Below, in pieces: positions 294-23,979 of a DNA stretch of 35,589 nucleotides (positions within the stretch are counted from its first letter, which is position 1; each line of letters starts with the position of its first letter). The DNA is from Deltaproteobacteria bacterium. GTDB taxonomy: Bacteria > Desulfobacterota > Desulfomonilia > Desulfomonilales > Desulfomonilaceae. Below the pieces are notes generated by a model. It ran no database searches and had not been told where the DNA came from. It saw only the letters and a list, made by a program, of their open reading frames with translations. A program made the position numbers and the translations under genes. The stretch is from NCBI GenBank assembly GCA_016875095.1, contig VGSG01000043.1, positions 1 through 35,589 of the forward strand, given 5' to 3'.

Positions 294-614
294 TCAGAAA
301 ATCCTGAGCAGGATAGGCTCTGAACTGGCCGTTACTTCGTACGAGCGAAGGCTGGGTTCGCCACTGTACATTTCCTTGAAGAGTCCGATAAGCCTTTCGT
401 AATCGCCGCTCTTTTCATAAGCCTCAACATCCGCGCGCGTATCCCACGCGGTAATGGAGATCGCCTCGTCGGGATTATCGAGGCGTTCCAGCAGGTGAAC
501 AAACCGTATGCCCTTGTGGCTTTTGTGCGCCGGAATCACCTCACGATTGTACAGATCCCGCAGTTCATCCATTCTCCTTGGCTGAACCTTGAAGAAGGTC
601 ATACGAACATACAT
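294..614 (-). CDS. Small ABM-like dimeric alpha/beta-barrel protein
   Basis: This 106-residue protein looks like a ferredoxin-like dimeric alpha/beta-barrel protein of the antibiotic-biosynthesis-monooxygenase (ABM) type. It has an N-terminal strand (MYVRMTFFKV), a helix-rich middle with a DNPDEAISITAWDT segment, then a helix and a final strand. Members of this fold act as cofactor-free monooxygenases, isomerases or binding proteins, so the reaction cannot be read from sequence. It is the last gene of the operon, 99 bp after the two-domain barrel protein. An AAGGAG lies about 10 nt before ATG 614. In an anaerobe, a ligand-binding or isomerase role is more likely than oxygenation; that is inference. 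Confidence 0.75.
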   Translation of the reverse strand: MYVRMTFFKVQPRRMDELRDLYNREVIPAHKSHKGIRFVHLLERLDNPDEAISITAWDTRADVEAYEKSGDYERLIGLFKEMYSGEPSLRSYEVTASSEPILLRIF

Positions 615-713
615 CGCGATCTCCTTTCCAACGGGGGGATTCGGGTGGGCGCCCGATCAAGCCTTCACGTGCCCGTCAACTCGTCAAGAGTGGTGGCGTG
701 CCCCGAAGTCCGT

Positions 714-1373
714 CTAGAAGCCTTTCATCATCTCACCCAGGAGCGCAGGCACTTCGATCCTGCCGGTTGGAGCGAGGATGCGGCTGCTGTAATCCGTCGC
801 GAACGTCCTGTTCAGCTTCCGAACGAGCCGCCTGAAGAGCGAGGTATCCACGGCCTTGGCAATGTCCTCGAGATTACGGGCTGTGCACTCGGCCAGGAGT
901 TTCGGCCCTTCCCCGATGACGAGCCTCCAGGCCCCGGTAACGGGGACACGGAGCTCTTTCATGCCAGGTATGCATTCTTCCTTTACGAAACGATAGTGAT
1001 CTTCTTCGACCCCCGGCGCCACATTGTAGTGCTGGTTGAATTTCCATGCTCCCATCTGGATCTTATACGGCCCTTCAGTGACACGTCCGCTCTGAACCCA
1101 GAGCCTACTTCCGTAATTGCTAACCAAGGTGAGTAGTTTATTTGAGATCAGCCTGTATTCTTCGGTTGACAGAATTTTGCGCAGGTAATCCTGCTCCTCT
1201 ATGGTCGCCACGGCTATGATTTGCGGCCCCCGGCCTACTATCACATAGTAACCACCGAGGAGTTTCAGGCCCATCTTTGCTAGCGCCGGATTGTACTCGT
1301 TCATGACGAATTCCGAGTACTGATCCAGCTTGCTCGGAATCACATCCCAGCATTGGGTGAAAAGAATGGTCAT
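714..1373 (-). CDS. Tandem dimeric alpha/beta-barrel (NIPSNAP-like) protein
   Basis: This 219-residue protein appears to hold two ferredoxin-like alpha/beta units in one chain. The first runs from about residue 1 to 105, starting with strand TILFTQCWDVIP. The second covers about 108-210, starting with YKIQMGAWKF. The two halves have the same strand-helix-strand order, as in NIPSNAP/ABM-like proteins that otherwise dimerise. No catalytic residue can be named. ATG 1373 has a GGAGG about 6 nt upstream and lies 22 bp after the stop of the ATP-binding kinase subunit, so the genes are almost certainly co-transcribed. It may bind or isomerise the pathway intermediate, which is inferred from context only. 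Confidence 0.72.
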   Translation of the reverse strand: MTILFTQCWDVIPSKLDQYSEFVMNEYNPALAKMGLKLLGGYYVIVGRGPQIIAVATIEEQDYLRKILSTEEYRLISNKLLTLVSNYGSRLWVQSGRVTEGPYKIQMGAWKFNQHYNVAPGVEEDHYRFVKEECIPGMKELRVPVTGAWRLVIGEGPKLLAECTARNLEDIAKAVDTSLFRRLVRKLNRTFATDYSSRILAPTGRIEVPALLGEMMKGF

Positions 1374-1395
1374 GGGCGCCTCCGGGGTTTCTCCA

Positions 1396-2421
1396 TCACA
1401 TCTTGAATACGCGTGACATGAGTTCCGCCAGGTACTCGGATTCGTTCTCTTTTTTCTTCATGTACTTCGCTGGACGGGTTTGCACCCAAAAGACGTTTTC
1501 GGGGAATGAGATGTCACTGTCGATGACCCACTCCATATCCTGTGGAACTTTGAAGTGAGCCTCCACGTCCTTGGCTACTCTGACGATCTCCCTCAGTTCA
1601 AGCTCGTCCAGGCACGGGACGCATCGCTTTTCATGCGGGACTTCGGAGAAGCATATGCCCCCAGGGTGATAACAGACCATCTTGGTTTTGTCCCCAAGCA
1701 CGCACTCGTACTCCTCCTGCTCTTTGTCCACGATGAACTGATCAGGCGTAATCTCACCGCTGACTACGCTCTCGCCCAGGCCCCAATTGCCTTCGACCAC
1801 AATCTTGGAAGTGTCGCCGATGGTGGGCAGCACCGTGAGACAGACGCCCGCGCATTTGGCATTGACCATTTTCAGAACAGCCACGCCTATGGGCGCCTTT
1901 TCCATCTCCATGCCCTGTTCAAGCCGAAAAGCGATTGCCCGTGTCGTGAACGCGCTTCCCCAGACGCGGATGACCTTCCTGGTCACCTCGCGTCGCCCCA
2001 CAACGTTGAGATAAGTCTCCATCTGCCCGGGCATGCTCACCGCGCCGCTGGACCGCACGGCCACCGACACATCTTCCATGTCCAAGCGTTTGCACAGGTC
2101 TGTATAATGATCCTGCAGCTCTTCCCGCATAGCCTTCGGCATCTCTTTGGACTCGATGATCTCGCGGATCTGGCGACCGGCCTGAACCTGGAATTCCACC
2201 TTGTCCAGAAGGCCCCTGTTTTCGCTCACGTATCGTCGGATCTGCTCTCCCGCGCCGCTCTCGGACATAAATCGCTCATATCCGTTCACCGAGACGGCAA
2301 ATCCCGGAGGCACCCTGAGGCCAAGTCGTGACATCTCGCCGAGGTTCGCACACTTCTTCCCAACCAAATCGTTGTCCGCGGTGGAGAGCTCTTCGAACCA
2401 GTAGATCCATTTCTCGGACAT
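1396..2421 (-). CDS. ATP-binding subunit of a PEP-synthase/phenylphosphate-synthase-like kinase
   Basis: This 341-residue protein is the isolated N-terminal ATP-grasp domain of the PEP synthase/PPDK family. Visible motifs are GKKCANLGEM (residues 21-30), VRSSGAVSMPGQMETY (122-137), GNWGLGESVVSGEITPDQF (211-229), and a C-terminal DMEWVIDSD followed by VQTRP. In this family the domain uses ATP to phosphorylate a histidine on the partner domain, releasing AMP and phosphate. A separate ATP subunit beside a separate His subunit is the arrangement of phenylphosphate synthase (PpsB with PpsA) in anaerobic phenol degradation, rather than single-chain PpsA of gluconeogenesis. The ATG at 2421 was chosen over one at 2475 because the family motif starts just after it and an AAAGGG precedes it. 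The true substrate is unknown. Confidence 0.85.
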   Translation of the reverse strand: MSEKWIYWFEELSTADNDLVGKKCANLGEMSRLGLRVPPGFAVSVNGYERFMSESGAGEQIRRYVSENRGLLDKVEFQVQAGRQIREIIESKEMPKAMREELQDHYTDLCKRLDMEDVSVAVRSSGAVSMPGQMETYLNVVGRREVTRKVIRVWGSAFTTRAIAFRLEQGMEMEKAPIGVAVLKMVNAKCAGVCLTVLPTIGDTSKIVVEGNWGLGESVVSGEITPDQFIVDKEQEEYECVLGDKTKMVCYHPGGICFSEVPHEKRCVPCLDELELREIVRVAKDVEAHFKVPQDMEWVIDSDISFPENVFWVQTRPAKYMKKKENESEYLAELMSRVFKM

Positions 2422-2508
2422 ACCCGGCCGCCCTTTCCACGTCGAGAGCAGGCAAACGGTCGACGGTCGGCCCATTCGACCGTCATGCCCGCTCCGGCAA
2501 CGGCGTCG

Positions 2509-4191
2509 CTACTTGTCCATGATGTAAACGGCGCCCAGGTTTGCATCCACCTTGATTCGTTGACCCGATCTGATCTTCCCGGTGCCTTCAAACACGTTCA
2601 TGACCACCGGAATGCCATACTCTCGCCCGACAATCGCCGCGTGGGAGAGACTCGCTCCCCTGTCCACCACCACCCCTTTGATCATGGAGAAGACCGGCGT
2701 CCAGCTCGGGGATGTGCTCGCAGCCACGAGAATGTCCCCTTCCTTGACCAAGTGCAGCTCATCTTCATTCATGATTACCCGAGCAGGTCCTTCCGCCACA
2801 CCCGGGGAACCGCATGTGCCGTACAGGTCCGCCTTCAGCTCAGGACGCACCTGCGGCATGGCGCCAACCACGACTTTCAGGGCAATCGGGTCGTTGGATT
2901 TGACCAACACGGCCATTGCTTGATCCAGGTCGAATCCCGGCGCCAGCACAGCGGGTGGGTTGGGCGTCTTTTGCCATTCTTGCCACTCGGCTTTCCTCCT
3001 CGCCACGATGTAGCGCAGATCGAACTGATCCGGATTAATGCCGGCGCGACGCACCTCGTCCGGGATCAGGAAGAACATGTCCTCGGGATCGTCCAGGGCG
3101 CCCAATTTGACGAAGCGCCGCCCCAGCCCGAGAGCGCTCCTTCTCATCATCGCGTGGGTATACAGATCAAGATAATGGTCATGCTCCTCGCTGAAGATCC
3201 CACTTTTTTGGGCCAGCCCCATCAACTGCTGGAACCACCCCCGCTGCTCGGTAGGCACCTTGCTCATAAGCTCCTTTTCCGCTTCCTGTCGCTCCTTCGC
3301 GATTCGTTTACGCTCCTCATCCAGATTGAAGCCGCCACCTTTGGCAACAAATTGTTTGACCATGCCCAAAGCGGGAGCAGGATCCTCCACCCACGTAGGC
3401 AAGTTCATTTCGGACATCCGCTGCATACGCCAGCCGTCTTCATTCATGAACGCCATGAAATCGCTCATGAACTCCCGGCCCTTGTCCGTTTTCTCCAACT
3501 CCTGACGGATCTCCGGTGGGTCGGTCTTTGAGATGGTATTTGCCAGATCGTCCTTCACCGCGCGCTGCGCAAACTCCCAAAGGCGCCGGTCCACCTGAAA
3601 GACCTTGTTGTCAAAACCGGAAACCACCCTATGAAAGGTGGGTGAGGTGTCGTCAATCCCGGCCAAGTCACGACACATGTTTTCGAAGAGGATATAAGCC
3701 GTATACGTCCCGTACATCATATACATGTGAATCTCCCACATGCGTCGGCACGTATCGATGGTTTCCTCGAAATTGTCCAGCAGCTCAATATTGCTGGCCT
3801 TGTCGAGGTCCAGCGCCTTGAGCGCGCCGTAACGCGAGAGGATCTCTTTCACAAAGCCCCCCCACAGCCCCTCATAGTCCTGAATGAAGGGAAGGATGGC
3901 CTTGCGGAACTCCCCTTCCCTGCGCTGCTTCTCCTCCTCGCTGGTGACCAAGAGCAGCGTCAGGTACCCTCCCCCGTTCATGAAACGCCAATCCCATCCT
4001 TTAACCGTGGGCAAGCTCAATTTCTCCGCGCCCCATTGCATCCCGTGCCGGCAGAAGTTGATCCAGAACCAACCGAACATGGGTGTCCAGGGAGGCACTG
4101 AATGCGTGCCGTCAAGAAACCAGGCGGGTGATTGGGCCAAATCCCGCTCAGGGTCAAACTCCAGTCCTGGGACCACATCGTATACTTTCAT
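2509..4191 (-). CDS. Phosphohistidine/substrate subunit of a phenylphosphate-synthase-like kinase
   Basis: This 560-residue protein ends in the swivelling phosphohistidine domain of PEP-utilising enzymes. It has ILVAASTSPSWTP, then GASLSHAAIVGREYGIPVV, where His517 is the predicted phosphorylated residue. The first roughly 430 residues are not a PEP-synthase barrel. They are Trp-rich near the start (PAWFLDGTHSVPPWTP, FGWFWINF) and resemble the substrate-binding part of the phenylphosphate synthase alpha subunit. With the next gene it should transfer phosphate from ATP through His517 to a hydroxyl or enol substrate. GGAGGAAACC directly precedes ATG 4191. The gap to the ATP subunit is 87 bp. 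The third, CBS-domain PpsC subunit of the phenol system is not present nearby. Phenol as substrate is possible but unproven. Confidence 0.82.
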   Translation of the reverse strand: MKVYDVVPGLEFDPERDLAQSPAWFLDGTHSVPPWTPMFGWFWINFCRHGMQWGAEKLSLPTVKGWDWRFMNGGGYLTLLLVTSEEEKQRREGEFRKAILPFIQDYEGLWGGFVKEILSRYGALKALDLDKASNIELLDNFEETIDTCRRMWEIHMYMMYGTYTAYILFENMCRDLAGIDDTSPTFHRVVSGFDNKVFQVDRRLWEFAQRAVKDDLANTISKTDPPEIRQELEKTDKGREFMSDFMAFMNEDGWRMQRMSEMNLPTWVEDPAPALGMVKQFVAKGGGFNLDEERKRIAKERQEAEKELMSKVPTEQRGWFQQLMGLAQKSGIFSEEHDHYLDLYTHAMMRRSALGLGRRFVKLGALDDPEDMFFLIPDEVRRAGINPDQFDLRYIVARRKAEWQEWQKTPNPPAVLAPGFDLDQAMAVLVKSNDPIALKVVVGAMPQVRPELKADLYGTCGSPGVAEGPARVIMNEDELHLVKEGDILVAASTSPSWTPVFSMIKGVVVDRGASLSHAAIVGREYGIPVVMNVFEGTGKIRSGQRIKVDANLGAVYIMDK

Positions 4192-4439
4192 GGTTTCCTC
4201 CGCCCTCGCATTTGGTGGAAAGATGGTTGAAAAGGCAGCCTGAGAAGTACCCTATTTGTATAGTGGTCTCAGGTCGAAAGCCGCGTGATCGGAGCAGCGG
4301 AGCAGTCTCAGGAAGGAATCGCCGCGTGCGCGTGCGCAAAGTGCGGAAATGAGCCGCCGGAGTCCGGCCGGGGGCTCTCACGGGAAAAGCAGAACGAGAT
4401 TTCGCCGCTTTCGACTTGGTGTGCGACGTTAAGACTAAT
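4192..4439. other. Intercistronic gap with nested inverted repeats
   Basis: This is the longest gap in the operon and holds no credible gene. CCTGAGA (4239-4245) pairs perfectly with TCTCAGG (4267-4273), and TCTCAGG recurs at 4306-4312. Further along, outer arms GAGCC (4351-4355) and GGCTC (4373-4377) enclose GCCGGA-G-TCCGGC (4356-4368). The structures could stabilise or attenuate the transcript between the dehydrogenase and the kinase genes, or mark an internal promoter region. I see no strong -35/-10 pair. Confidence 0.35.
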
Positions 4440-5195
4440 TCAGTGCATCGCCCTCCCTCCATCCACCAAGATGGTTTGACCCGTAATAAAGTCACTCTCG
4501 TCCGATGCCAGGAAGGCTACCACGCCCACCAGGTCCTCGGGTTTCTGCAATCGTTTGAGCGGAGTGCGGCTCGTGTCGTATTTCTCCACGTCGGCCACAG
4601 TGCGGCTGGCTTCCGTGTCGGTGAATCCGGGCGCGACCGCATTCACGCAAATCCCGTATGGTCCGAGCTCTATCGCGAGCGCTCTCGTCAAACCGATGAC
4701 TCCCCCTTTGGAAGCAACATAGTGCGCGAAGCCGTGCGAGCCCGTGAAAAAGACCTCCGAAGCCAGATTGACAATCTTTCCTTTCCCTTGGGCCTTCATG
4801 AAGGGAAATACCGCTCTGGCGCACAACCACGGGCCTTTTACATTCACACTCATCATTCGGTCCCATTCTTCGGCGGTTATCTCGGTGAAGGCCTTCCGTT
4901 TCACGCCGTAATAGAAGGCCGCGTTGTTCACCAGCACGTCCACGCGACCGAATGCGCCGAACACCTCCTGCGCCATCCCGCTGACCTGAGCTTCATCCGA
5001 GACGTCAACCTGACTCAAAAAAGCCTCCCGGCCCAGTTTCCGCACCAGCTTGGCGGTCTGCTCGAGGCCCTCCATGTCGGCGCGTGTCACGGCGACAATG
5101 TGAGCTCCTTCTTCAGCCAGTTTCACGCAGAACGACCGTCCGAGCCCTTTGCCCGCGCCCGTCACCAGAGCCACTCGACCTTCGAGTCGAGGCAT
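4440..5195 (-). CDS. Short-chain dehydrogenase/reductase (FabG-like)
   Basis: This 251-residue protein is a classical SDR. The cofactor motif TGAGKGLG is at residues 12-19 and NNA at 90-92. The catalytic set is Asn118, Ser146, Tyr159 and Lys163 (YVASK), followed by the usual PG motif (VAPGFTDT) and the C-terminal GQTILVDGG. It should oxidise a secondary alcohol or reduce a keto group with NAD(H) or NADP(H); the substrate is not evident. Residues after the second strand (TRAD) do not give a clear cofactor preference. GGGAGG precedes ATG 5195, which lies only 14 bp after the stop of the upstream FAD oxidoreductase, so the two are translated from one message. A housekeeping fatty-acid role is unlikely in this context. 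Confidence 0.9.
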   Translation of the reverse strand: MPRLEGRVALVTGAGKGLGRSFCVKLAEEGAHIVAVTRADMEGLEQTAKLVRKLGREAFLSQVDVSDEAQVSGMAQEVFGAFGRVDVLVNNAAFYYGVKRKAFTEITAEEWDRMMSVNVKGPWLCARAVFPFMKAQGKGKIVNLASEVFFTGSHGFAHYVASKGGVIGLTRALAIELGPYGICVNAVAPGFTDTEASRTVADVEKYDTSRTPLKRLQKPEDLVGVVAFLASDESDFITGQTILVDGGRAMH

Positions 5196-5209
5196 TCAAA
5201 CCTCCCGGA

Positions 5210-6874
5210 TCAGTACGGTCTCCCCTTTTGTTCCCAGATTTTGGGAAGCCCATAGTCTTCCGCAATCGTCTTGAAGCAGTTGTATCCACTCCCTCGTCCG
5301 ATTCCCGGGCCCGAGTGCGCGGCCGCGGAGCAGAGATAGAGATTCTTCACCGGCATACGGTAGAACGCCAATTCCGGAAAAGGTCTCATGCGACCCATCT
5401 GCGAAGCGATCATGTCCTCGCCGGTCCAACCTCCCTGAGGCATGTTGATGTTGCGCATCTTCACGTCCATCGGAGTAGTGATGTGCGCGGCAATGAGGTT
5501 GTCCGGAGTCATGTTCGGAGCGTACCAGGACCATTGCTCCCGCACGATCTCCACAATCTCCTTCTTCATGCGGAGCCATTCCCCGTCGCTGAAGAAGCGA
5601 TACGGCGCAGTGAACTGCTCGATGAGGATGGTGTGCTTGTCTCCCGGGGCGCGGGTCCTGTCCCAAATGCTGTCCGGGGCCACAATACAGACGAGCTTCT
5701 CCGGGATACCTTTTACGAAAAGCTCGGCCTGGTGACGAGTTGCAAAGTAATCGGCATCTTTCGGGCCCCAGTTCAGCCTGGGACACATGCCGATTTCCGG
5801 GTTATCCTTGGCCGCCGTGTACGCAGGGAGCTCATGGAGCGCAAAGTTGCCCCAGAAAAGCTGCGCCCGATCCTTGAGAGTATTCTTGGCCCGATGAGCG
5901 ATCTTCGGATCAACGTGCTCTTCGCCGATGAGCTGGAGGACGGTTTGCGGCGTGTTAAGGTCGCTCACCACCACGCGCCGCGCCGCGATCTCCCGACCGT
6001 CTTCCAGTCTGACGCCCACTGCCTTGCCATTCTCAATGATGGCGCATTCCACCGGCGTCTCGACCACGAACTCGCCACCCATAGAACTGAAAGCCCGCTG
6101 GAGCGCATGAGTTATGGCGTGAGTGCCCCCGACCGATATGGATGCTGGTTCCCACGAGAGTATGAGGCCAAGCGTATGCAAGGTCTTGTAGATACCAATG
6201 CAATCATTAGGAAACACCCCGCTGGACGTCATGCAGGATCGCATGAAGAGCGTCCGAAGATAGTCGGTCTCAAAGAGGTCATACGCGACCTGCTGTGAAG
6301 TATAGAACTGATACTCAGGGGGGATGGGCGCTTCAGGATCGTTGATGAGCCGCTCAAAGGCGTCGGGAACGCCCCATGGAGTGGGCGGATTGTATCGCCA
6401 CTCATGAAACGCCGCCCGCCACTTCTTCCGGTACTTTTCCAGCAGATCATAGGCCACGTCCGCATCCCGCTTCGAGAATCGGGCAATCTGATCGACGGTC
6501 TTTTGCGCGTTGGTTTCGTCGAACTCCGCCCTTCCGGTGTTCGGGTCAACCACTTTCCACGCGGTGAATCCAAGAAAGCTCACGCCGTCGTCGTAAATCA
6601 TGCCTTCGCTGTGATCAGGATAGACGTACGCCAGGCCCTTCTCCCTTAGCTTGAAGTCGTCATACGCGGGATGCCCATAGAATCGAGTGAAATGCGCGCA
6701 CGGATTCTGAAGAAAACCCGGAAGCGGAAGCGCTTCGCCACATGCGCCGCCGCCCAGTTCGTGCTGTCTCTCAAAGACCACGGTCTGCATGCCCGCGTGC
6801 TGCAAGTAACAGGCAATAATCGTTCCCTGGTGACCGCCACCCACCACGATCGCGTCGTACGTCCTATCCGCCAT
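5210..6874 (-). CDS. CrtI/phytoene-desaturase-like FAD oxidoreductase (copy B)
   Basis: This 554-residue flavoprotein has an N-terminal dinucleotide-binding fold, GGGHQG at residues 12-17 in strand AIVVGGGHQG, then a FERQHELGGG segment typical of the amine-oxidase/phytoene-desaturase superfamily. The C-terminal FAD-contact segment reads LYLCSAAAHSGPGIGRGSGY. Family members desaturate, isomerise or saturate hydrophobic polyene or cyclic substrates. It is a paralogue of the protein encoded at 7198-8823, sharing the LPGFL..N segment after the FAD motif and the overall layout. AAGGAGG precedes ATG 6874. No signal peptide or obvious membrane helix is seen, so it should be cytoplasmic or peripheral. 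No carotenoid synthase gene is nearby, so carotenoid synthesis is not supported. Confidence 0.87.
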   Translation of the reverse strand: MADRTYDAIVVGGGHQGTIIACYLQHAGMQTVVFERQHELGGGACGEALPLPGFLQNPCAHFTRFYGHPAYDDFKLREKGLAYVYPDHSEGMIYDDGVSFLGFTAWKVVDPNTGRAEFDETNAQKTVDQIARFSKRDADVAYDLLEKYRKKWRAAFHEWRYNPPTPWGVPDAFERLINDPEAPIPPEYQFYTSQQVAYDLFETDYLRTLFMRSCMTSSGVFPNDCIGIYKTLHTLGLILSWEPASISVGGTHAITHALQRAFSSMGGEFVVETPVECAIIENGKAVGVRLEDGREIAARRVVVSDLNTPQTVLQLIGEEHVDPKIAHRAKNTLKDRAQLFWGNFALHELPAYTAAKDNPEIGMCPRLNWGPKDADYFATRHQAELFVKGIPEKLVCIVAPDSIWDRTRAPGDKHTILIEQFTAPYRFFSDGEWLRMKKEIVEIVREQWSWYAPNMTPDNLIAAHITTPMDVKMRNINMPQGGWTGEDMIASQMGRMRPFPELAFYRMPVKNLYLCSAAAHSGPGIGRGSGYNCFKTIAEDYGLPKIWEQKGRPY

Positions 6875-6926
6875 GGAGAGACCTCCTTGTTTGCAGCGGG
6901 GTGGCCCGGAATAATATCCGAGGCCT

Positions 6927-7187
6927 TTACCGAGATTCCGGATGGTCGAGCTTTGACCCGGCTATAAGCAACTTGAGCACATAGAAGAAATTAGCGGGTC
7001 GGAGAAAGAGCCGAGCGAATGTTCTGAGATCATCTCCTCCCACAGTGGCCTTGATCGACCAATGGACCGGTTCGGTTGCTTCTATGTTCAGCCTCATGGC
7101 GGGTCTGCCGCCATCCTCCACGGCGACGAGATCGGCGAAGTGAGCGACCATGACGGTCTTTCCCAGGCCGGTGGAGTTCACTTTCAT
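6927..7187 (-). CDS. Small unknown protein between the two FAD oxidoreductases
   Basis: This is an 86-residue protein that I do not recognise. It is Lys/Arg-balanced, starts MKVNSTGLGKTVMVAHFADL and ends with a hydrophobic helix-like stretch (FLRPANFFYVLKLLIAG). There is no cysteine cluster, signal peptide or known motif. It is likely real. AGGAGG lies about 6 nt before ATG 7187, that ATG is 10 bp after the stop of FAD oxidoreductase A, and its stop is 52 bp before the start of FAD oxidoreductase B. The hydrophobic tail might tether the flavoproteins to the membrane or act as a subunit, which is speculation. A longer frame starting at 7307 would overlap the upstream gene and was rejected. Confidence 0.65.
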   Translation of the reverse strand: MKVNSTGLGKTVMVAHFADLVAVEDGGRPAMRLNIEATEPVHWSIKATVGGDDLRTFARLFLRPANFFYVLKLLIAGSKLDHPESR

Positions 7188-7197
7188 CGATCGCCTC

Positions 7198-8823
7198 CTA
7201 CAACGTCCCTTTGGCCTTGGCCTTGCGCACGCAGTCCGGTTCAGGCCACCAACGCTCGATACCCAGATCCTCAGCGATCTTGTTAGCCGCGTTGTACCCG
7301 GGGCCAAAGGTGATCAGCCCACCGGGAAACGTGCTTGCGCCACATACGTAGAGTCTTTCAATCGGCGTCGCGTAGTGAGAGCAGTCTTCATTCGGCCGCA
7401 GGTAACCCATCTGAAGCGGATGGTACTGACCCTGCTTGTACGAGCCTTTCACCATGTCCGCGAACTTGTTCCCGATATCCAAAGGTGTGGTGATGTAGCG
7501 CCAGAGGATATTTTCGTCCGATACATTTGGGGCGTATTTTTTGAGCATCTCCACACAGCGATCGGCCTCGCGCTCTCGAATGCGGTACCAGCGTTCAGAC
7601 CCGCCCTCTTTGAGGTCATGCGGCGCGTGGAGCGAAATCAGAGCCGTGTGCTTGCCCGGAGGGGCTTGTTTCGGATCGTGGAGCGACGGGAAACAACAGT
7701 TGAACCCTCCCGGATAGAGTTCACCGCGGTGGATTGCTTCATAGTGGCGAATGAGGCTCTCCTCGGTCTCGTACCCCAGCACGATGATCAATGCGTTGTT
7801 CAGATCAGGATCAGACTTTGCCGCGTTAAATTGCGGCGCCCCGTCCAGGGCCAAATGCACGTGGAAGAGGCTCGTAATCTCCCATTTCCAATCATTGATC
7901 CTCGTGACAAAGCGCTCTTCCAGATTTTGCGCGCCGACCAATTGCAGAAATGTCTGATACGGATCCAGGCTGCTGGCCACGAACTTGTTCGCCTTGTACA
8001 GCGTGCCGTCTCCAAGCTCGACGCCGGCGGCTTTTCCGCCTTCAATGACGATCCGCTTCACCTTCACGGGAGATATGATCATACCGCCGTGTCTATAGAG
8101 CACTTTGGTAAACAAATGGGCCAGGTGGTGCGATCCGCCTTTCACCAGCCTGTAGTTCACCGCCCTGTTGACAAGCAGCGGCACAAGATAGCTCACTCCT
8201 TCCAAATCGTGATGGAGCCCCCACATGCAACTGAGATAAAGGAACAGACACCTGACCCGGTCATTCTCGAAGAGACCGTTGACGATGTCCAGTGGTGTCT
8301 TTTCCGTGATCTCGCTGATCTCGCGGCCCACGTCGGTGGCTTGCAACGTGACGAGCTGCTCGAATGCGGGCTTGGCAAGTTCATACGTGGCAGGTCCGAG
8401 GAAATCCTCCGTCAGGACCCGATAACGCTCCGCGATCCCCCGGTAAGTCTCGGCATCTTTCCTGGAGAAGCGGCCAATCGATTCGCAGGTTTTGTCCGTG
8501 TCCTGGAAAAGGCAGAGCGAGGAGCCGTCTTCAAACGGCATGGCCATGACCGGGGATGGAAACGCGAATTCCAGGTCATAGTCTTTGGTCAGGTAATCGT
8601 CGAAGTCTACGAGCGGCGGCGCATAATCCACCATAGGCATGTACACCGCGTGGGTATTATGGAGAAACCCGGGAAGAGTGACCTGCTCCGTCGCCAGCCC
8701 ACCACCTGCTTCGAAACGACGCTCCAGTACAAGAATTTTCAGTCCGGCCCTGGCAAGATAGGCTGCCACTGTCAGTCCATTAGGGCCGGCGCCGATGATG
8801 ATGCCGTCATATTCCTCAGTCAT
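7198..8823 (-). CDS. CrtI/phytoene-desaturase-like FAD oxidoreductase (copy A)
   Basis: This 541-residue protein is the first gene of the operon. GAGPNG (residues 11-16) follows strand YDGIIIGAG, and [15 protein letters not shown] completes the FAD-binding signature. The C-terminal segment [30 protein letters not shown] is the second FAD-contact region. The family (phytoene desaturase/isomerase, amine oxidase superfamily) acts on apolar alkenes or rings. AAGGAG lies about 8 nt before ATG 8823. It is divergent from the LysR gene, with the shared control region at 8824-9030. Two paralogous flavoproteins in one operon suggest consecutive hydride-transfer steps or a heterodimer; neither can be decided from sequence. 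Confidence 0.87.
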
Positions 8824-8968
8824 CCGCTTTCTCCTTGTTACGGTAACCGCAGAGGTAGTCAGGCCGGCGCCTTGGAGGTGTCCGCGTTGAGATGCTGGAA
8901 CAGGAACTTGAGATCGGTTCGTGCGAAACGCTAGGTCTGCCGCTATACACAGCGTGACAGGATTTATG

Positions 8969-8998
8969 TTGACATGTCAAAGCAGGAATTTTTATGAT
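8969..8998 (+). promoter_or_regulatory. Sigma-70-type promoter of the LysR gene
   Basis: A consensus TTGACA (8969-8974) and TATGAT (8993-8998) are separated by 18 nt. Transcription would start near 9005, about 25 nt before ATG 9031. The -35 is half of the perfect palindrome TTGACATGTCAA (8969-8980), which puts TTGACA on both strands. No matching -10 was found for the minus direction at 16-18 nt, so the operon promoter may depend on the regulator. Confidence 0.7.
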
Positions 8999-9016
8999 GT
9001 CATAAGGAAAACTTAT
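8992..9016. promoter_or_regulatory. LysR-type operator (T-N11-A box) and overlapping dyad
   Basis: ATAAG-GAAAA-CTTAT (9002-9016) is a perfect dyad containing T-N11-A (9003-9015), the classic LysR recognition pattern. An overlapping dyad TTATGA-TG-TCATAA (8992-9005) covers the -10 element of the lysR promoter. Binding here would repress the regulator's own gene, while contacts upstream could activate the divergent operon at 8823. The regulator's co-inducer is unknown. Confidence 0.6.
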
Positions 9017-9030: not shown

Positions 9031-10044
9031 ATGCCCTCAGACCTCAACCTCAACCAGTTGAAAGCATTCTACTATGCCGCAAGCTGCGGAAGCATCACCC
9101 GTGCGGCTGATAAGCTCTTCATTACCCAGCCTGCGGTCAGCCTTCAGATAAAGGCGCTGGAAGATCGTCACAGCGTGCAGCTTTTCATCAGGCGAAAGAA
9201 AAAGCTGGAGCTGACGCCATCCGGCAAGCTCCTGTATCAGGTTGCGGAGAAGATCTTCGGCCTGGTCGAAGACGCGGAACGAGTTCTCGATCAGGCCCAC
9301 GATTTTGCCGAAGAGGTGTTGCGAATCGGGAGTTCCAAGCAGCTTGTGCGCCACCTGCTTGCACGCTACATCTCGGCCTTTCGAGCTGCGTTTCCTCGCG
9401 TTCGCATCCAGATCAGTGAAGGCTCTTCCGAAGAAATGCTGGCCAATATACGGGAGAATCGAAATGATATCGCCATCGTAGGTCGCCTCCCGTATCAAGA
9501 GAACTTGGAAGTGATCCCGTTTATTGAAGACGCGTTGGTCGTCCTGACCTCGCCTGCTCATCGCCTGGCTGAACGAGAAGCGGTTTCCGTGGAGGAACTC
9601 GCGGGCGAGAACCTCATTCTGCGCGAAAAAGGTTCCGGGACTCGCCTGCTGGTGGATCGGATCTTCCGGGATCACGGTATTTCAACGCGAGGATCCATTG
9701 AAACGGGAAATGTGGACTTCATCAAGGAGATGGTGGCCGCGGGCAACGGTGTTACCTTTCTCGCGCGCATGGGCGTCGATCACGAAGTGAACAAGGGTGA
9801 ACTCAGAGCTATTCCGCTCAGGGAAGGTCCTTTTCTTCTAGCGGTGGACATCGTATACGATCGAAACAAGACCTTATCGCAGGCAGACAAAGACTTTCTG
9901 GACATGCTCATCAAGGCCAAGGCCGGTTCTCAACCGGTGTACACCTTTCATCTTTTCGCTGCTCACGAGGAAACTCAAGGGCGGCCACGAACGATGGAGG
10001 GCTTACCGCACGACCGTAGAATCGCCGATGCGGAAAAACCATAA
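9031..10044 (+). CDS. LysR-family transcriptional regulator
   Basis: This 337-residue protein has the LysR winged helix-turn-helix at residues 1-65: LNQLKAFYYAASCGSITRAA, then ITQPAVSLQIKALED. A LysR substrate-binding domain follows (about 90-300), with the hinge segment VLRIGSSKQLVRHLLARYI and GNGVTFLARMGV near the end. The last 35 residues are an unusual polar tail. The gene is divergent from the 8823-294 operon, which it most likely controls in response to a pathway metabolite. No good Shine-Dalgarno is close to ATG 9031 (AAGGA is 22 nt away), but stops just upstream exclude earlier starts. It may therefore be weakly translated. Confidence 0.92.
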   Translation: MPSDLNLNQLKAFYYAASCGSITRAADKLFITQPAVSLQIKALEDRHSVQLFIRRKKKLELTPSGKLLYQVAEKIFGLVEDAERVLDQAHDFAEEVLRIGSSKQLVRHLLARYISAFRAAFPRVRIQISEGSSEEMLANIRENRNDIAIVGRLPYQENLEVIPFIEDALVVLTSPAHRLAEREAVSVEELAGENLILREKGSGTRLLVDRIFRDHGISTRGSIETGNVDFIKEMVAAGNGVTFLARMGVDHEVNKGELRAIPLREGPFLLAVDIVYDRNKTLSQADKDFLDMLIKAKAGSQPVYTFHLFAAHEETQGRPRTMEGLPHDRRIADAEKP

Positions 10045-14968: not shown

Positions 14969-15796
14969 TCACACAAGTCGCCTGAGCATGTCCAATAGGC
15001 CTATAGGTTTCCGCCGGACCTGAAGGGCAGTATACGGCAAGAACGGGCTGGCGCCCCACTTTTCTTTGAAACGCCGCACACCACCACTTATGCCCAACCC
15101 CAGATTGACCGCGCCCTTGCCTTCGTCTTCCGCCATATTGACCATCTGGTGAAAGAGCAAATCGGATGCTCCCGGCACATAGGTCACCGTGGAGCGGAAG
15201 TTAAACAAGTAGAACAGATAAGATGCCGAACCAAGATCCAGAACGCTGAACGCGACTAATTCACCGTCTTTCCTCGCCTCCAGCAATCGCGCGGTGGGAG
15301 CGCTCACCACATACTCAGGGAGCCGGCGAAGGATCTCCTCATGGCCTGCGGTAATTTGCCGCTCTGCGATAAACGCTTCTGTGAGTTTTTTGTGTTCCGG
15401 ACCGAAGCTGCCTCGACCGATCCTGACCTCCCGCTCCGCCCGGCGAATCATGTACGCCAAGTCGGGTTTGATTTCTCCAATGGGCAGGGTCAATCGGTAG
15501 CACGTGTCGTGGACGGCGTGCTCTGCGTCACTCTCGGGGAACCAGATTTTCGGAGATATGACAGCGACCGTCGCCGGTTGGAAGAGTCGGCATGCGCTTT
15601 CATAGGCATGTTCGGGTTCAACTGCTCGTTCTTCAAGAGCATAGCCGACAAATATCAGGTGGTCGGCTTTCAGAAAGCACAGATAACCGTCATGGAGGCA
15701 GGGGTCCGCGCCGGACATGGCCTGAACGTAGTGGACGAGATGTTCAGCGACATAAGCCTTTTGGTAGACAATTTCCTGTTCTTCCCGGCTCAGCAT
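14969..15796 (-). CDS. GNAT/FemAB-fold acyltransferase-like protein (paralogue 1)
   Basis: This 275-residue protein belongs, as far as I can judge, to the acyl-CoA N-acyltransferase fold. The C-terminal half has FSVLDLGSASYLFYLFNFRS, YVPGASDLLFHQMV, then NLGLGISGGVRRFKEKWG. The last resembles the FKxxWG/FKxxFG ending of GNAT and FemAB-type transferases. The N-terminal half is unusual (AYVAEHLVHYVQAMSGADPC) and shared with the paralogue at 16122-16991. The donor and acceptor are unknown. It leads a minus-strand operon with the radical SAM and flavoprotein genes and has a near-consensus promoter at 15938-15966. Only a weak GGTGG precedes ATG 15796, so the exact start is less sure. Confidence 0.78.
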   Translation of the reverse strand: MLSREEQEIVYQKAYVAEHLVHYVQAMSGADPCLHDGYLCFLKADHLIFVGYALEERAVEPEHAYESACRLFQPATVAVISPKIWFPESDAEHAVHDTCYRLTLPIGEIKPDLAYMIRRAEREVRIGRGSFGPEHKKLTEAFIAERQITAGHEEILRRLPEYVVSAPTARLLEARKDGELVAFSVLDLGSASYLFYLFNFRSTVTYVPGASDLLFHQMVNMAEDEGKGAVNLGLGISGGVRRFKEKWGASPFLPYTALQVRRKPIGLLDMLRRLV

Positions 15797-15937
15797 GAAA
15801 TAGCCACCAAGTCTCCACCCGGGAAGCCCCGTTCAATGCGCCGCGCGACCGAGAGAGAGAATGTCCGTCCTGGTCTCATCAATTCTTCATGAGTTACGAT
15901 TAGAGTTTCCGCCCTAGGGCCACAGATCTTCCTGTTC

Positions 15938-15966
15938 ATCATATTCTTGGGTAGTTTAGGTGTCAA
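15938..15966 (-). promoter_or_regulatory. Strong minus-strand promoter for the radical SAM operon
   Basis: On the minus strand TTGACA (15966-15961) is followed after exactly 17 nt by TATGAT (15943-15938). This is a perfect -35 and a five-of-six -10. Transcription would begin near 15931, leaving a leader of about 135 nt before ATG 15796. That length allows leader control, although no known riboswitch was recognised. Confidence 0.7.
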
Positions 15967-16004
15967 CTCGTCCAAAGCGGGCCGTAACCCAAACGGACCT
16001 ACAC

Positions 16005-16033
16005 TTCCGAGCCTTCAGTCAATGTGCTATGCT
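16005..16033 (+). promoter_or_regulatory. Possible plus-strand promoter
   Basis: TTCCGA (16005-16010, three of six bases) and TATGCT (16028-16033, four of six) are 17 nt apart, upstream of ATG 16122. The match is modest, and the stronger signal in this gap faces the other way. Confidence 0.3.
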
Positions 16034-16121
16034 CGCGTCCCGAGCTATCGTCCTTCTGAGCAGGCGCAAAGGCTCTGAAGGTGGAAGCGCCAAATGCTGT
16101 CCTCTAGGCGCGGGTGGCGCA

Positions 16122-16991
16122 ATGATCACACCTGAGCAACATGCGTGGATTCACGCTCAAGCTTATGTCCCCGAGCACTGTGTGAACCTCATGACTCTGG
16201 TGTCTGGAGGAGAGCCGTTTCTCATAGACGACTATTTCTGTTGTCGCGCGGGCGATGCGCTCATCGTGGTGGGCTATCCCTTGGGGCGCGAGTTCGAATC
16301 TCAAGCTCTGGAGGCAGCGTTGAACCGAATGATTCAGCGCTTCAAGCCCAAGCGGCTCTCGCTGGCCGCGCCTGATACCCCGCGGTCTTTTGCGAATTCC
16401 TGTGTCGAACGAGAAACCGACCAGTACTACACCCTGGATCTGAGTACTCTGGCGATCCCCTCCGGATTGCGTCGCGCGCTGGCAAAGGCCGCGCGAAATC
16501 TGCTCATCGAGGGCGGAAATGCGCTCAGTGACGCGCATGCGGAACTCGCGCGGGAATTCGTGGGCCTGGTAAATCCGCCTGCCCGCGTGAAAGCGCTGCT
16601 TTTTAGAATGTGGGATTACGTGGGCGCTACGGATGATTCTTTGGTGTTGAGCGCGTGGGCCCATGATGGGAAATTGGCAGCGTTCTACGTAGTAGACTTT
16701 TCGGCCGCGCGTTTTTCCACGTACGTGATCGGTTGCCATTCAAAGAAGAGCTACGTGTCGGGCGCGTCGGACCTTTTGGCTTCCGAGATGATCCGCCTCA
16801 GTCGCGATGGCGGCAAGCAATACATTCATCTCGGACTCGGGGTGAACCAGGGCATTCGCCGTTTCAAGGAGAAATGGGGCGGCGCGCCTTCCATGAATTA
16901 TGTGATGTGCGAGTTCTTGGTAAGAAGACCGTCCTTCTTGGGGGCCATAGTCGGGTACACGGTCCATGAGACTGAAAGCGGAAAATGGTGA
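16122..16991 (+). CDS. GNAT/FemAB-fold acyltransferase-like protein (paralogue 2)
   Basis: This 289-residue protein is a clear paralogue of the one encoded at 14969-15796. Shared features are the N-terminal QAYVPEHCVNL segment, a central helical part, YVSGASDLLASEMI, and HLGLGVNQGIRRFKEKWGGAP near the end. The same acyl-CoA N-acyltransferase fold is inferred and the substrates are unknown. ATG 16122 is chosen because paralogue 1 starts at the matching point; the Shine-Dalgarno is poor (GGGTGGCGCA). Its stop overlaps the start of the TraB/GumN gene by 7 bp, so the two are translationally coupled. The inverted arrangement around 15797-16121 suggests an old inverted duplication. Confidence 0.78.
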   Translation: MITPEQHAWIHAQAYVPEHCVNLMTLVSGGEPFLIDDYFCCRAGDALIVVGYPLGREFESQALEAALNRMIQRFKPKRLSLAAPDTPRSFANSCVERETDQYYTLDLSTLAIPSGLRRALAKAARNLLIEGGNALSDAHAELAREFVGLVNPPARVKALLFRMWDYVGATDDSLVLSAWAHDGKLAAFYVVDFSAARFSTYVIGCHSKKSYVSGASDLLASEMIRLSRDGGKQYIHLGLGVNQGIRRFKEKWGGAPSMNYVMCEFLVRRPSFLGAIVGYTVHETESGKW

Positions 16992-21167: not shown

Positions 21168-23255
21168 ATGGAAACGAAAGCATACAGCCAGTGTGAGATG
21201 TGCTCCGCACGCTGTCCCATAGAAGTGACGTTGGACGATGGAGTCGTCTCGACCATATTCGGCAATCCGGCTGTCGGCTCCATAGGGACTCGGCTCTGCG
21301 CAAAAGGCGCTGCGGCAAAATGGTTCCTCAACGACACGGAGAAGCCGACCCGCCCCCAGATTCGAGTCGGCTCCCGGGGAGAAGGTCAATGGCGTGACGC
21401 AAGCTGGAACGAGGCGTACGACTATGTGGCCGACAGATTGAAGGCCATCGCCGAGAAATGGGGCGCTCAGAGTATCCTGGTCGGCTATCGTGGCAGCCTG
21501 AATAACGAGTTTGTTAAGGCATTCGCCCGCGGACTGGGCACGCCCAACGACTTCACGCACAACAGCGTATGCCCCCTCTCCTTGCACACCGCGTGTCAGG
21601 CGACCCTGGGCGTGGGACGAAAGGCGCTCGGTTTCGACATTGAGAATTCGGAATACGTGGTCCTTTACGGTCGAAACATCTATGAGTCTCTGACCGTCGC
21701 CGAAGTGAACCAATTGATGGCCGCAATGGACAACGGAGTGAAAATCGTCACCATCGACCCTCGCGCCTCAAAGACCGCGGTCAGGTCCTACTACTGGGTA
21801 AAGATCAGGCCGGGTGGGGACTGGGCCTTTAATCTGGCGCTCATGAACGAGATCATCAAGAGCAACCTGTTCGACGAGCATTTCGTGCAGACGTGGGTCA
21901 AGGATTTTGATGCGCTGCGCAATTATGTGGAGCCGTACACGCCGGAGTGGGCCGAAAAAGAGACCGACGTGGAAGCTGCCACGATTCGCCGGCTTGTCAG
22001 GGAATTCGGCGAAGCCAAACCCAAGGTGATTTTCCACATCGGTTGGTTTGCAGCCCGGTATTTGAGCGAATTCCACATGAGACGGTCCATTCTCTTTTTG
22101 AACGCTTTGATGGGGAGTTATGAGGTGGAGGGCGGGCTCTTCTTCAAGAAAGGCCTTACGGACGTCGGCCGAAAAGGACTCAAGGAGCTTGATTCGACCT
22201 TGGATGCGCCCAAAGGGGACCGGTTCGACGGTATCGGCCCCGGCAAGAAGTTTCCCATCGTGGACAAGGGCCAGGGTATTGCGCATATGCTCGTGGAAGC
22301 CGCGGAAACCGAGCAGCCCTATCCGGTGAAGGCTTTGATCATCTATCGATTCGACCCGCTGTATTCAACTCCCGACACAAACGCATTGATCCAGGCGTTG
22401 AACAAATTCGAGTTGGTCGTGGCCATTGATGTGAACTGGAGTAATACCGCATGGTATGCTGACGTGGTATTGCCCGAATCCCATTTTCTGGAGCGCGGGG
22501 ACCCCATCCAGGAGCGCAAAGGGCTCAAGCCGATCCTGGCCCTGAGGCGGACGGTTTTGCCCGCACGGTTTGATACGCAGCCCGCGTGGCGAATTTTCAA
22601 AGAGCTGGCCAATCGGCTGGGTTTCGGCGACAAGTTCTTCTACAAAGACATCGATGAATACAATGAGTGGAAGCTCTCTGAGGCCGGAATCGAACTTTCC
22701 CAGTTCGGCAAGACCGGCGTGGTCAACCTGGCAAAGGAGAAGATCTGGTACGACCGCGACACAGGTCTTAAGATCAAGACGCCGTCCAAGAAGATCGAAG
22801 TGATCTCCGCCAAGATGGAAGGAGCCGGGTTGCCGTCGCTTCCGCCGTACGAACCCCTCCAGGTTCCCGAAGGCAAGCTGCGGCTCATCATCGGCAGAAA
22901 CGCGCTCTACACTCAGGGCTCCCTGAGCAACAACAAGTACATAAAAGAAGTGCTCCCCAACCATCCCATCTGGATCAACAAGAAGGCCGCGGAATCTCTG
23001 GGAATCAATGATGGGGACCTGGTGCTGGTTTCCAGCGACACGGGATCGGGGACGACCGTTGCTTACACCACGGACGCGATTCACCCGGAAGCCGTGTACT
23101 TGCCTCACGCGTTCGGCAAGCGGGCCAAAGCGCAGCGTTACGCCTACTCAGTCGGCTTGAGCGACGCAGAGCTGCAAAACTTTGCAACAGACTACGTGGG
23201 TGGCAGCGCGGCCATGCAAGAGTGCTTCGTCACCGTGGAGAAGATATCGAAATAA
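21168..23255 (+). CDS. PhsA/PsrA-like molybdopterin oxidoreductase without Tat signal
   Basis: This 695-residue catalytic subunit is of the DMSO-reductase superfamily. The N-terminal [4Fe-4S] site is Cys9, Cys12, Cys16 and Cys44 (CX2CX3CX27C). The segment GTPNDFTHNSVCP matches the thiosulfate/polysulfide reductase branch and presents Cys135 as the probable Mo (or W) ligand. Other bis-MGD segments include VVLYGRNIYES, VTIDPRASKT, and the C-terminal dinucleotide-binding domain (LRLIIGRNALYTQGS onward). The chain begins directly at the cluster, and an in-frame stop 15 bp upstream rules out a Tat signal. It should therefore be cytoplasmic, unlike standard PhsA/PsrA. GAGGTG precedes ATG 21168. It is probably partnered by the next two genes. 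Confidence 0.88.
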   Translation: METKAYSQCEMCSARCPIEVTLDDGVVSTIFGNPAVGSIGTRLCAKGAAAKWFLNDTEKPTRPQIRVGSRGEGQWRDASWNEAYDYVADRLKAIAEKWGAQSILVGYRGSLNNEFVKAFARGLGTPNDFTHNSVCPLSLHTACQATLGVGRKALGFDIENSEYVVLYGRNIYESLTVAEVNQLMAAMDNGVKIVTIDPRASKTAVRSYYWVKIRPGGDWAFNLALMNEIIKSNLFDEHFVQTWVKDFDALRNYVEPYTPEWAEKETDVEAATIRRLVREFGEAKPKVIFHIGWFAARYLSEFHMRRSILFLNALMGSYEVEGGLFFKKGLTDVGRKGLKELDSTLDAPKGDRFDGIGPGKKFPIVDKGQGIAHMLVEAAETEQPYPVKALIIYRFDPLYSTPDTNALIQALNKFELVVAIDVNWSNTAWYADVVLPESHFLERGDPIQERKGLKPILALRRTVLPARFDTQPAWRIFKELANRLGFGDKFFYKDIDEYNEWKLSEAGIELSQFGKTGVVNLAKEKIWYDRDTGLKIKTPSKKIEVISAKMEGAGLPSLPPYEPLQVPEGKLRLIIGRNALYTQGSLSNNKYIKEVLPNHPIWINKKAAESLGINDGDLVLVSSDTGSGTTVAYTTDAIHPEAVYLPHAFGKRAKAQRYAYSVGLSDAELQNFATDYVGGSAAMQECFVTVEKISK

Positions 23256-23351
23256 CGAAGCCCCCGAGTGCCCGTTTATGGCGCCTTCCGGCGGAAAGTC
23301 GCGGATTCTTCAGCGACGTTTCATACAATGGGTTCAAACGGTCAGCTATTG

Positions 23352-23379
23352 CGCCCCGGCTCGCACGAATCGCGGGGCG
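23352..23379. repeat. 7-bp inverted repeat before the ferredoxin subunit
   Basis: CGCCCCG (23352-23358) and CGGGGCG (23373-23379) enclose 14 nt, 25 bp before ATG 23404. It may tune the ratio of the catalytic and ferredoxin subunits. A smaller dyad TTCCG-G-CGGAA lies about 60 bp further upstream in the same gap. Confidence 0.35.
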
Positions 23380-23403
23380 TGCTCAAGATAAACGGAGGCA
23401 ATC

Positions 23404-23979
23404 ATGTCGGTATTCCCACACCTCACTCCCGTGGAAGAAGGAAACTTGAATCGTCTGCACCTGTACCATGATTCCGAACGGTGCATTGGGTGCTACAGTT
23501 GTGAGCTTCATTGCAAGATGAAGAACAACCTGCCCATTGGGCCGAGACTATGCAGAATCATCGAGATCGGTCCTCGGGTAAGGAGTAGCATCCTTCGTAT
23601 GGACTACCATTTCCTCCCCTGTTTCCACTGCGAGAATCCGTTCTGCGCGCACGTTTGCCCCACCGGCGCGATTCAAAAGCGGGCCAAGGACGGCATTGTC
23701 TTCGTGGACCAGGGTTTGTGTATCGGCTGCAAGTGCTGCATAGCCGCGTGTCCGTGGGGAGTGCCCCAGTGGAACCCTGAAACCGGCAAGGTCGTCAAGT
23801 GCGACTATTGCATGGATCGAGTGGATCGCGGCCTGAAGCCGGCGTGCGTTACCGGATGTCTGACCCAATGTCTGCACTTCGGCCCTGTGCATCAGGCGTC
23901 AGACCTCCTGAGAAAGAGGTATGCGGAATCCTTGGAAATGACAGGAAGAGCAACCGGCAGAGTCACAAGAGCCTTGTGA
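23404..23979 (+). CDS. Four-cluster ferredoxin subunit (PhsB/PsrB/DmsB type)
   Basis: This 191-residue electron-transfer subunit has cysteine groups for four [4Fe-4S] clusters in family order. They are Cys27-Cys30-Cys33-Cys37 (CIGCYSCELHC), CFHCENPFCAHVCP, CIGCKCCIAACPWGVP, and CDYCMDRVDRGLKPACVTGC. It should carry electrons to or from the molybdoenzyme encoded just upstream. No signal peptide is present, and the usual PsrC/NrfD membrane subunit is absent nearby, so quinol coupling is not supported. GGAGG precedes ATG 23404. The next gene supplies a likely NAD(P)H-oxidising partner, so the three proteins probably form a soluble complex. Confidence 0.92.
   Translation: MSVFPHLTPVEEGNLNRLHLYHDSERCIGCYSCELHCKMKNNLPIGPRLCRIIEIGPRVRSSILRMDYHFLPCFHCENPFCAHVCPTGAIQKRAKDGIVFVDQGLCIGCKCCIAACPWGVPQWNPETGKVVKCDYCMDRVDRGLKPACVTGCLTQCLHFGPVHQASDLLRKRYAESLEMTGRATGRVTRAL

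Follow-up and report, generated by a model that had tools for sequence, protein, structure and literature searches.

In the Cre pathway of Corynebacterium glutamicum, 4-cresol is processed by a two-component kinase, a cytochrome P450 system, a short-chain dehydrogenase/reductase (SDR), an aldehyde-oxidising enzyme and an HD phosphohydrolase. The genes cg0645 to cg0637 correspond to creJ-I-H-G-F-E-D-C, with their products tabulated in the published account (PMC7764795). A different oxidation is described for the flavoprotein CtmAB of Castellaniella defragrans, which hydroxylates the allylic methyl group of limonene using water (PMC4109377, PMC11061730). CtmAB shares with the delta24-sterol desaturase of Sterolibacterium denitrificans the covalent-flavin motif G-F-L/R-X-N/S-T/L-H-A (PMC11061730). 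Herein, an operon at positions 294 to 9016 of a 35,589-nucleotide stretch from Deltaproteobacteria bacterium (assembly GCA_016875095.1) was compared with these systems. This stretch, called the window, spans contig C43 (VGSG01000043.1) from end to end, in a genome of 4.7 Mb and 202 contigs, and the left edge of the window is the contig end. The Cre reactions are the closest known set to those of the operon, and the Cre pathway did not figure in an earlier sequence-only reading of this DNA. From homology and gene context, the operon is interpreted with moderate confidence as an oxygen-independent counterpart of the Cre pathway, in which a water-using flavoprotein would replace the P450.

The operon contains eight genes on the minus strand. 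Gene A (7198-8823) encodes a CrtI/CrtO-like flavoprotein of 541 amino acids with a putative covalent-flavin motif, G52-F-L-H-N-T-H58-A. Gene A2 (6927-7187) encodes a conserved protein of 86 amino acids with invariant STGLG, P40, W43, D53 and R55, and gene B (5210-6874) encodes a second CrtI/CrtO-like flavoprotein of 554 amino acids with Cys59 at the flavin-linking position. Gene C (4440-5195) is predicted to encode a CreG-like SDR alcohol dehydrogenase, D (2509-4191) the swivel (His517) and substrate-binding subunit of a two-component dikinase, and E (1396-2421) an ATP-grasp (PPDK_N) dikinase subunit of 341 amino acids. The start of E at 2421 was preferred over the listed 2475 because the orthologues of relatives align from residue 1 of the shorter form. 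Genes F (714-1373) and G (294-614) complete the operon, and a LysR-type regulator (9031-10044, plus strand, identified by Pfam) is divergent from it. Pfam matches were obtained for E (PPDK_N), D (PEP-utilizers), C (SDR), A and B (FAD/amine-oxidase-type), G (ABM) and LysR. The intergenic gaps from A to G in transcription order are 10, 52, 14, 248, 87, 22 and 99 nucleotides. By eye, seven of the genes (all but E) are preceded by a Shine-Dalgarno-like site; the one at E is weak. The sequence-only reading had described eight tightly spaced genes with good Shine-Dalgarno sites and a divergent LysR gene. The genes and the regulator are real, but the 248-nucleotide gap between C and D and the weak site at E depart from that description. 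Its gene set of a split phosphotransferase, flavoproteins and an SDR is backed by the Pfam domains and by the conserved order in relatives.

Conservation of the operon was then assessed at two distances. D was found at an identity of at least 77% in 11 of the 99 genomes searched; these are the genome of the window, nine others from its family and a single one from a different family. All eight genes and LysR occur in identical order in six relatives; in a seventh (G008), the contig stops after F. The orthologues of A in relatives are 80-82% identical and those of LysR, in the same place, 54-56%. The recurrence of this gene order exceeds chance. A scan of the GTDB collection for relatives of D gave at least 65 named loci, and every count out of 65 given here is among the matches listed. 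The genes of these loci were called by a simple open reading frame (ORF) caller with homology support. The loci belong to Desulfomonile-type and other Thermodesulfobacteriota, and to records titled Actinomycetes/Actinomycetota, Bacillota, Chloroflexi/Anaerolineales and Proteobacteria. Many of them are incomplete, and E was counted in 56, C in 46, B in 39, F in 32, A in 26, LysR in 26, A2 in 22 and G in 15 of the 65. Both A and B, paired with D each time, are present in 24 loci, which span Thermodesulfobacteriota, Actinomycetota, Bacillota and Chloroflexota. The order A-(A2)-B-C-D-E is kept on one strand in 21 of these 24; the exceptions are L105 and L125, where the fetched stretch ends after D without an E, and L117, with D upstream. 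Homologues scattered without synteny, the outcome which the sequence-only reading had set against itself, are thus excluded, as the order is kept in relatives and in related loci.

The operon was compared with the Cre system through an operon on plasmid pRB98 of Rhodococcus oxybenzonivorans, which encodes a P450, E-like and D-like proteins, an SDR, a ferredoxin, a ferredoxin reductase, an HD protein and an aldehyde dehydrogenase. C is 47.8% identical (5e-72) to the Cre-type SDR of pRB98. When this SDR was searched against the window's genome, C was the best match with 216 bits, and the next of the 16 matches scored 122 bits. E and D are 37% and 26.5% identical to their Cre-type counterparts. 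Similarly, three HD proteins of related loci are 32-35% identical (1e-31 to 2e-26) to the HD protein of pRB98, and the aldehyde dehydrogenases of six loci (L077, L078, L082, L083, L109 and L110) are 35-40% identical to the pRB98 enzyme. When six genomes were searched with the HD protein of pRB98, six matches were found, every one next to the operon: two in G011 and a single one in each of G004, G007, G014 and G015. No P450 was found by Pfam in the operon or in the window's genome, and the same search was positive in a C. glutamicum control. The two-component kinase and the SDR are shared with the Cre pathway, and many related loci also encode an aldehyde-oxidising enzyme or an HD phosphohydrolase. 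In place of the P450 CreJ and of CreEF, a CtmAB-like pair, or B plus an electron-transfer flavoprotein (ETF), is encoded. The two systems thus have their types of kinase, alcohol dehydrogenase and phosphatase in common, and the P450 system appears to have been replaced. Further differences are that the aldehyde step is mostly assigned to AFOR-family or molybdenum enzymes and that the kinase belongs to another clade.

The later steps of the Cre pathway were sought in the genes next to the operon. In relatives, the region beyond the left end of the window begins with a gene for an HD-domain protein, followed by one for an aldehyde oxidoreductase of the AFOR family (tungsten-type). Alternatively, with or without the HD protein, relatives encode a molybdenum aldehyde oxidoreductase of the Mop type together with a DsrC-like protein and a class-V aminotransferase of cysteine-desulfurase type. 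Among the 65 loci, tungsten-type aldehyde oxidoreductases are present in 32, molybdenum-type in 12 and aldehyde dehydrogenases in 6, with at least one of these enzymes in 49. HD phosphatases are present in 27 and ARMT1-like phosphatases in 15, with at least one in 39; both functions are encoded in 35. When the 33 loci of at least 15 kb were taken, aldehyde oxidation was found in 27 and a phosphatase in 26, versus 2 and 0, respectively, among 20 control windows of 20 kb each. The Fisher p values are 3e-7 for the aldehyde function and 6e-9 for the phosphatase, in a test that treats related loci as independent. The positions of the control windows were chosen manually in five genomes, and the operon is present in three of these. 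Beyond the two AFOR matches, one control window had weak A/B-like matches and one had EtfA/B-like matches. Since three unrelated enzyme families occupy the same slot, oxidation of an aldehyde is well supported.

In the window's genome, an AFOR-family gene, 74% identical to the next gene of the relatives, starts 189 nucleotides into contig C68, and an ARMT1-like phosphatase gene follows it. The operon probably continues from C43 onto C68, and the system probably includes, outside the window, an aldehyde oxidoreductase and a phosphatase. Six loci (L089, L092, L095, L103, L116 and L121) carry genes for a large HdrA-like flavin/FeS protein, a tungsten-type aldehyde oxidoreductase and a small ferredoxin ahead of D. 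The aldehyde step of these loci may be linked to electron bifurcation or confurcation.

The flavoproteins A and B are 29% identical and fall into two separate clades of a CrtI tree. The tree has 69 rows: of 66 family ORFs, the 64 that reach at least 480 amino acids, plus 5 further sequences. A carries the sequence GFLHNTHA, and the motif His is kept in 28 of the 29 rows of the A clade; the 29th is an aberrant hybrid row. By NCBIfam, A and B are CrtI/CrtO-like, with carotenoid enzymes as the best matches, all far below cut-off, and a role as carotenoid desaturase or ketolase was rejected on these scores. Plasmid searches with A and B gave 26-33% identity in the best 25 of 163 and the best 25 of 91 records. 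A and B thus resemble the paired subunits of a single enzyme, of the type of CtmAB and the delta24-desaturase. The likeness to CtmAB and the delta24-sterol desaturase lies in two paralogous subunits of 26-29% mutual identity and in the covalent-flavin motif, at least in A. The differences are the Cys of B in place of His, the kinase encoded alongside, the extra A2 protein and the absence of a ferredoxin from the operon. The two separate flavin redox steps of the sequence-only reading are accordingly revised to one probable two-subunit enzyme.

A2 matched no Pfam family, and no NCBIfam family when 18 members were searched; a fold search gave no structural relative, with a best match of E 0.14. 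Its alignment held 17 of the 21 listed rows plus the window's own. EtfA/B are encoded in none of the 26 loci with A, versus 13 of the 15 loci with B but no A. This sister cluster type, with B and without A and A2, contains ETF and usually an EtfD-like protein. A+A2 and ETF may be equivalent in electron transfer. The lone B proteins of the ETF loci fall mostly in one 12-row clade of the CrtI tree, so the alternation may represent a single evolutionary switch.

Two other arrangements of A/B-like pairs were observed. In strain NaphS2 (L145, 9994-18091), a CrtI pair resembling A and B adjoins an SDR and a Hydantoinase_A protein; this cluster is possibly a sister pathway that ends in ketone carboxylation. 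In a Thermoleophilia genome (L146, 3763-18056), an E-like ATP-grasp protein, a transposase (Pfam DUF772/DDE), an SDR, B-like and A-like proteins and Hydantoinase_A/B are encoded in a row, perhaps as a second and disrupted version of the module. The Hydantoinase_A/_B family includes acetone carboxylase subunits. These neighbours would suit an A/B-type pair that produces alcohols, which the SDR may in turn convert to ketones.

The kinase is split into two genes. E matches PPDK_N only, and D carries the C-terminal PEP-utilizers domain with a large N-terminal part, which indicates separate ATP-grasp and swivel/substrate subunits, as in the kinases for phenol (PpsAB), cresol (CreHI) and hydroxyacetophenone (HpeHI) and in PasAB. 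The catalytic His517 of D is invariant in 10 aligned sequences, and the Ser preceding it, also found in PpsA and CreH, is kept. Compared with Pps-, Cre- and Hpe-type pairs over most of the length, D is 25-28% and E 31-39% identical. For HpeHI, a two-component mechanism that requires the catalytic His is described (PMC12167813), and the characterised relatives of D/E are reported to act on phenols or aniline (PMC12167813, PMC7500099). By homology, D/E is expected to work like the Pps/Cre/Hpe kinases, though it stands outside all three groups. A further difference from these pairs and PasAB is that no CBS subunit is encoded in the operon.

Two other assignments for D/E were rejected. Phosphoenolpyruvate (PEP) synthase or pyruvate dikinase is out because D and E are split, no PEP/pyruvate-barrel family is matched and the NCBIfam scores are far below cut-off. 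Rifampicin phosphotransferase is out because its NCBIfam score is also far below cut-off and the context is catabolic. A D-like subunit was also seen on a Thermomicrobium roseum plasmid (L152, 7572-9596), beside an ABM gene, genes for xanthine-dehydrogenase-family subunits, a fumarylacetoacetate-hydrolase-family gene and a Tm-1-like gene; this is another uncharacterised use of a D-type kinase.

By homology, a pathway of five steps can be proposed. D/E would phosphorylate a phenolic hydroxyl group, probably of an alkylphenol, with ATP bound by E and the phosphate carried on His517 of D; we infer that the substrate is an alkylphenol such as cresol. A/B, perhaps with A2, would then remove a hydride from the benzylic side chain and add water, as CtmAB does, and would replace the P450 system CreJEF. 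The SDR C would convert the resulting alcohol to an aldehyde (or a ketone). The aldehyde would be oxidised to the acid by the AFOR-family (tungsten-type) or molybdenum aldehyde oxidoreductase, or by an NAD aldehyde dehydrogenase. Finally, the HD (CreD-like) or ARMT1-like phosphatase would remove the phosphate, and the hydroxybenzoate would be activated to its CoA ester.

Several points weigh against this interpretation. In the flavoproteins, several orthologues of A keep the His and vary around it. B has GFLQNPCA without the motif His; of the 40 rows of the B clade, 36 have Cys at this place, 3 have His and 1 has Gly. Flavins are known to be linked through Cys as well as through His. The operon contains no CtmE-like ferredoxin. 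Limonene dehydrogenase is described as needing an acceptor of positive potential, which is perhaps unworkable in sulfate reducers (PMC12583861). One NaphS2 protein is reported as the nearest to both CtmB (41%) and CtmA (30%) (PMC4109377); A and B are 50% and 32% identical to the two NaphS2 proteins found, which gives an indirect link to CtmA and CtmB. In the kinase, the swivel motif of D is VDRGASLSH, in which Val replaces Thr/Ser and Ala replaces the second Gly of the published T/SxxGGxxxH; the published motif is retained by all three Pps/Cre/Hpe-type reference kinases. The D tree was built from 50 rows (D proteins of 35 selected loci among the 65, some with two rows, together with references and paralogues; one wrong-frame row was dropped). 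It places D in a clade of 38 rows, separate from the Pps/Cre/Hpe clade of 10 rows, both with 100/100 support, although long branches were flagged and the deep joins are unsure. Because of the separate clade and the altered motif, the substrate of D/E could differ from those of the Pps/Cre/Hpe kinases. The comparison with CtmAB and with the Cre proteins of C. glutamicum is indirect, by way of published descriptions and of the pRB98 operon, which was labelled Cre-type because its gene order equals that from creJ to creC. SDR and aldehyde dehydrogenase are large superfamilies, and no HD gene was found in the window's genome with either of two HD queries. Much of the support comes from related loci, which are not independent, rather than from the window, and the link between C43 and C68 follows from the contig ends and was not seen directly.

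Four other explanations were weighed against an oxygen-independent Cre counterpart. The first is an ATP-dependent dehydration, in which D/E would phosphorylate an aliphatic alcohol, for example of a terpenoid or steroid side chain, and the phosphate would be eliminated to give an alkene. A/B would then hydroxylate the allylic methyl group, and C and the aldehyde oxidoreductase would yield the acid. A precedent is described in Sterolibacterium denitrificans, where a phosphorylated intermediate is followed by water-dependent allylic hydroxylation and an aldehyde dehydrogenase (PMC7411048), and the position attacked by CtmAB is likewise an allylic methyl (PMC4109377). However, the characterised D/E relatives use phenols or aniline (PMC12167813, PMC7500099), C and the HD protein resemble Cre-type proteins, and the recurrent phosphatase genes would be superfluous if the phosphate were eliminated. 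This route is considered unlikely.

About equally improbable is a desaturation, with A/B as a delta24-sterol-desaturase- or CrtI-like desaturase on a phosphorylated ethyl- or propylphenol or an alicyclic enol, and C reducing or oxidising the product. The delta24-desaturase, the other characterised enzyme with the motif of A, does desaturate (PMC11061730), and carotenoid enzymes are the best NCBIfam matches of A and B, if far below cut-off. Against this, the aldehyde-oxidising enzymes in 49 of the 65 loci point to an alcohol and an aldehyde and not to an alkene.

The order of the steps could also differ, with A/B acting first on a free alkylphenol or aniline-type compound and phosphorylation following later. 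Gene order alone leaves the step order unfixed, and PasAB of Desulfatiglans anilini is reported to convert aniline or phenol in vitro (PMC7500099). Phosphorylation comes first in the Cre pathway as described (PMC7764795), and late phosphorylation is judged still less probable than the two preceding routes.

The last explanation concerns phenol carboxylation, which has a kinase pair of the same fold family in common with the operon. It differs in that no UbiD-type carboxylase was found among the operon genes by Pfam and in that the genome encodes such a cluster elsewhere. On contig C15 of the same genome, a phenol-type cluster encodes a UbiX-type flavoprotein, PEP-utilizers and PPDK_N subunits, UbiD, an AMP-ligase, UPF0261 and a CBS protein, and its PEP-utilizers subunit groups with the Pps reference in the D tree. 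A phenol-type cluster also lies directly upstream of the operon in four genomes of one genus (G004, G011, G014 and G015), with UbiD checked by Pfam in G004. A variant in which D/E makes phenylphosphate for a UbiD encoded elsewhere, with the other genes as accessories, could draw on this upstream cluster but is very improbable, as both the upstream and the C15 clusters have their own kinase pairs and D is paired with both A and B in 24 of the 65 loci.

Phenol carboxylation as the role of the operon was thus rejected, and the sequence-only reading, which had considered standard phenol degradation unlikely, agrees with the separate C15 cluster and its own kinase subunits. It had also counted an adjacent phenol pathway as a point against itself. 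Such a UbiD cluster is indeed present upstream in four genomes, but its own kinase pair leaves the operon unexplained by it. As a second kinase in the genome, the operon's D/E presumably has a different substrate. UPF0261 (Tm-1-like) genes accompany both phenol-type clusters, as on C15 (L147, 14174-15403), and the operon, in 22 of the 65 loci. Two benzene systems were also discarded as relatives of the operon. The main text on the 2026 'Magic' cluster lacks the words phosphotransferase and phytoene (PMC13101534), and the BzS1 flavoprotein is described as a glycolate-oxidase/PCMH-type protein (PMC13416013).

The remaining features of the operon were examined as follows. F, a protein of 219 amino acids, had no family match in the Pfam search of the window proteins. 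Its AlphaFold2 model (pLDDT 91) has two alpha/beta-barrel repeats, and Foldseek matched it to 3f44, 2pgc and coproheme decarboxylases, a predicted fold that resembles ABM-like and chlorite-dismutase-like proteins; its alignment held 29 of the 36 listed rows plus the window's own. G is an ABM-domain protein of 106 amino acids (Pfam ABM, 2.9e-10). The barrel proteins proposed from the sequence agree with the Pfam match of G and the predicted fold of F. In the intergenic region between A and LysR, the perfect palindrome TTGACATGTCAA (8969-8980) is found in 8 of 9 aligned regions; it occurs once in the window and in none of 100 shuffles, and is a probable regulator site. The inverted repeat ATAAG-N5-CTTAT (minus-strand reading, 9002-9016) is a possible LysR site; seven aligned rows extend to these positions, and 6 of them contain it. 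Elsewhere in the window, two neighbouring divergent ORFs of 275 and 343 amino acids (14969-16991) share the stretch RRFKEKWG and appear paralogous, with no Pfam match. Consecutive genes for a molybdopterin oxidoreductase, a 4Fe-4S ferredoxin and a pyridine-nucleotide/4Fe-4S flavoprotein were identified by Pfam at 21168-26099.

Among the papers listed in searches of the open PMC library, none links a phenolic dikinase to a CtmAB-type flavoprotein; subscription journals lay mostly outside this library, so this is weak evidence of novelty. To our knowledge, few types of enzyme are known to oxidise the alkyl side chains of aromatic rings without oxygen. As a broader and more tentative proposal, the operon may represent a widespread undescribed anaerobic route for cresol or alkylphenol, in which an aryl phosphate is hydroxylated by a flavin-only, oxygen-free C-H hydroxylase. 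Its flavin would be held covalently through His in A and Cys in B, the module would be common to Thermodesulfobacteriota, Actinomycetota, Bacillota and Chloroflexota, and A+A2 would be interchangeable with ETF. If true, the pathway would be an anaerobic parallel of an aerobic one, which keeps the kinase, the alcohol dehydrogenase and the phosphatase and takes a water-using flavoprotein for the oxygen-dependent P450, with the aldehyde step carried out mostly by tungsten- or molybdenum-type enzymes. It would also provide a flavin-only hydroxylase that acts on a phosphorylated substrate, within a defined protein set open to direct assay, and gene markers for the turnover of phenolic compounds in anoxic groundwater and sediments.

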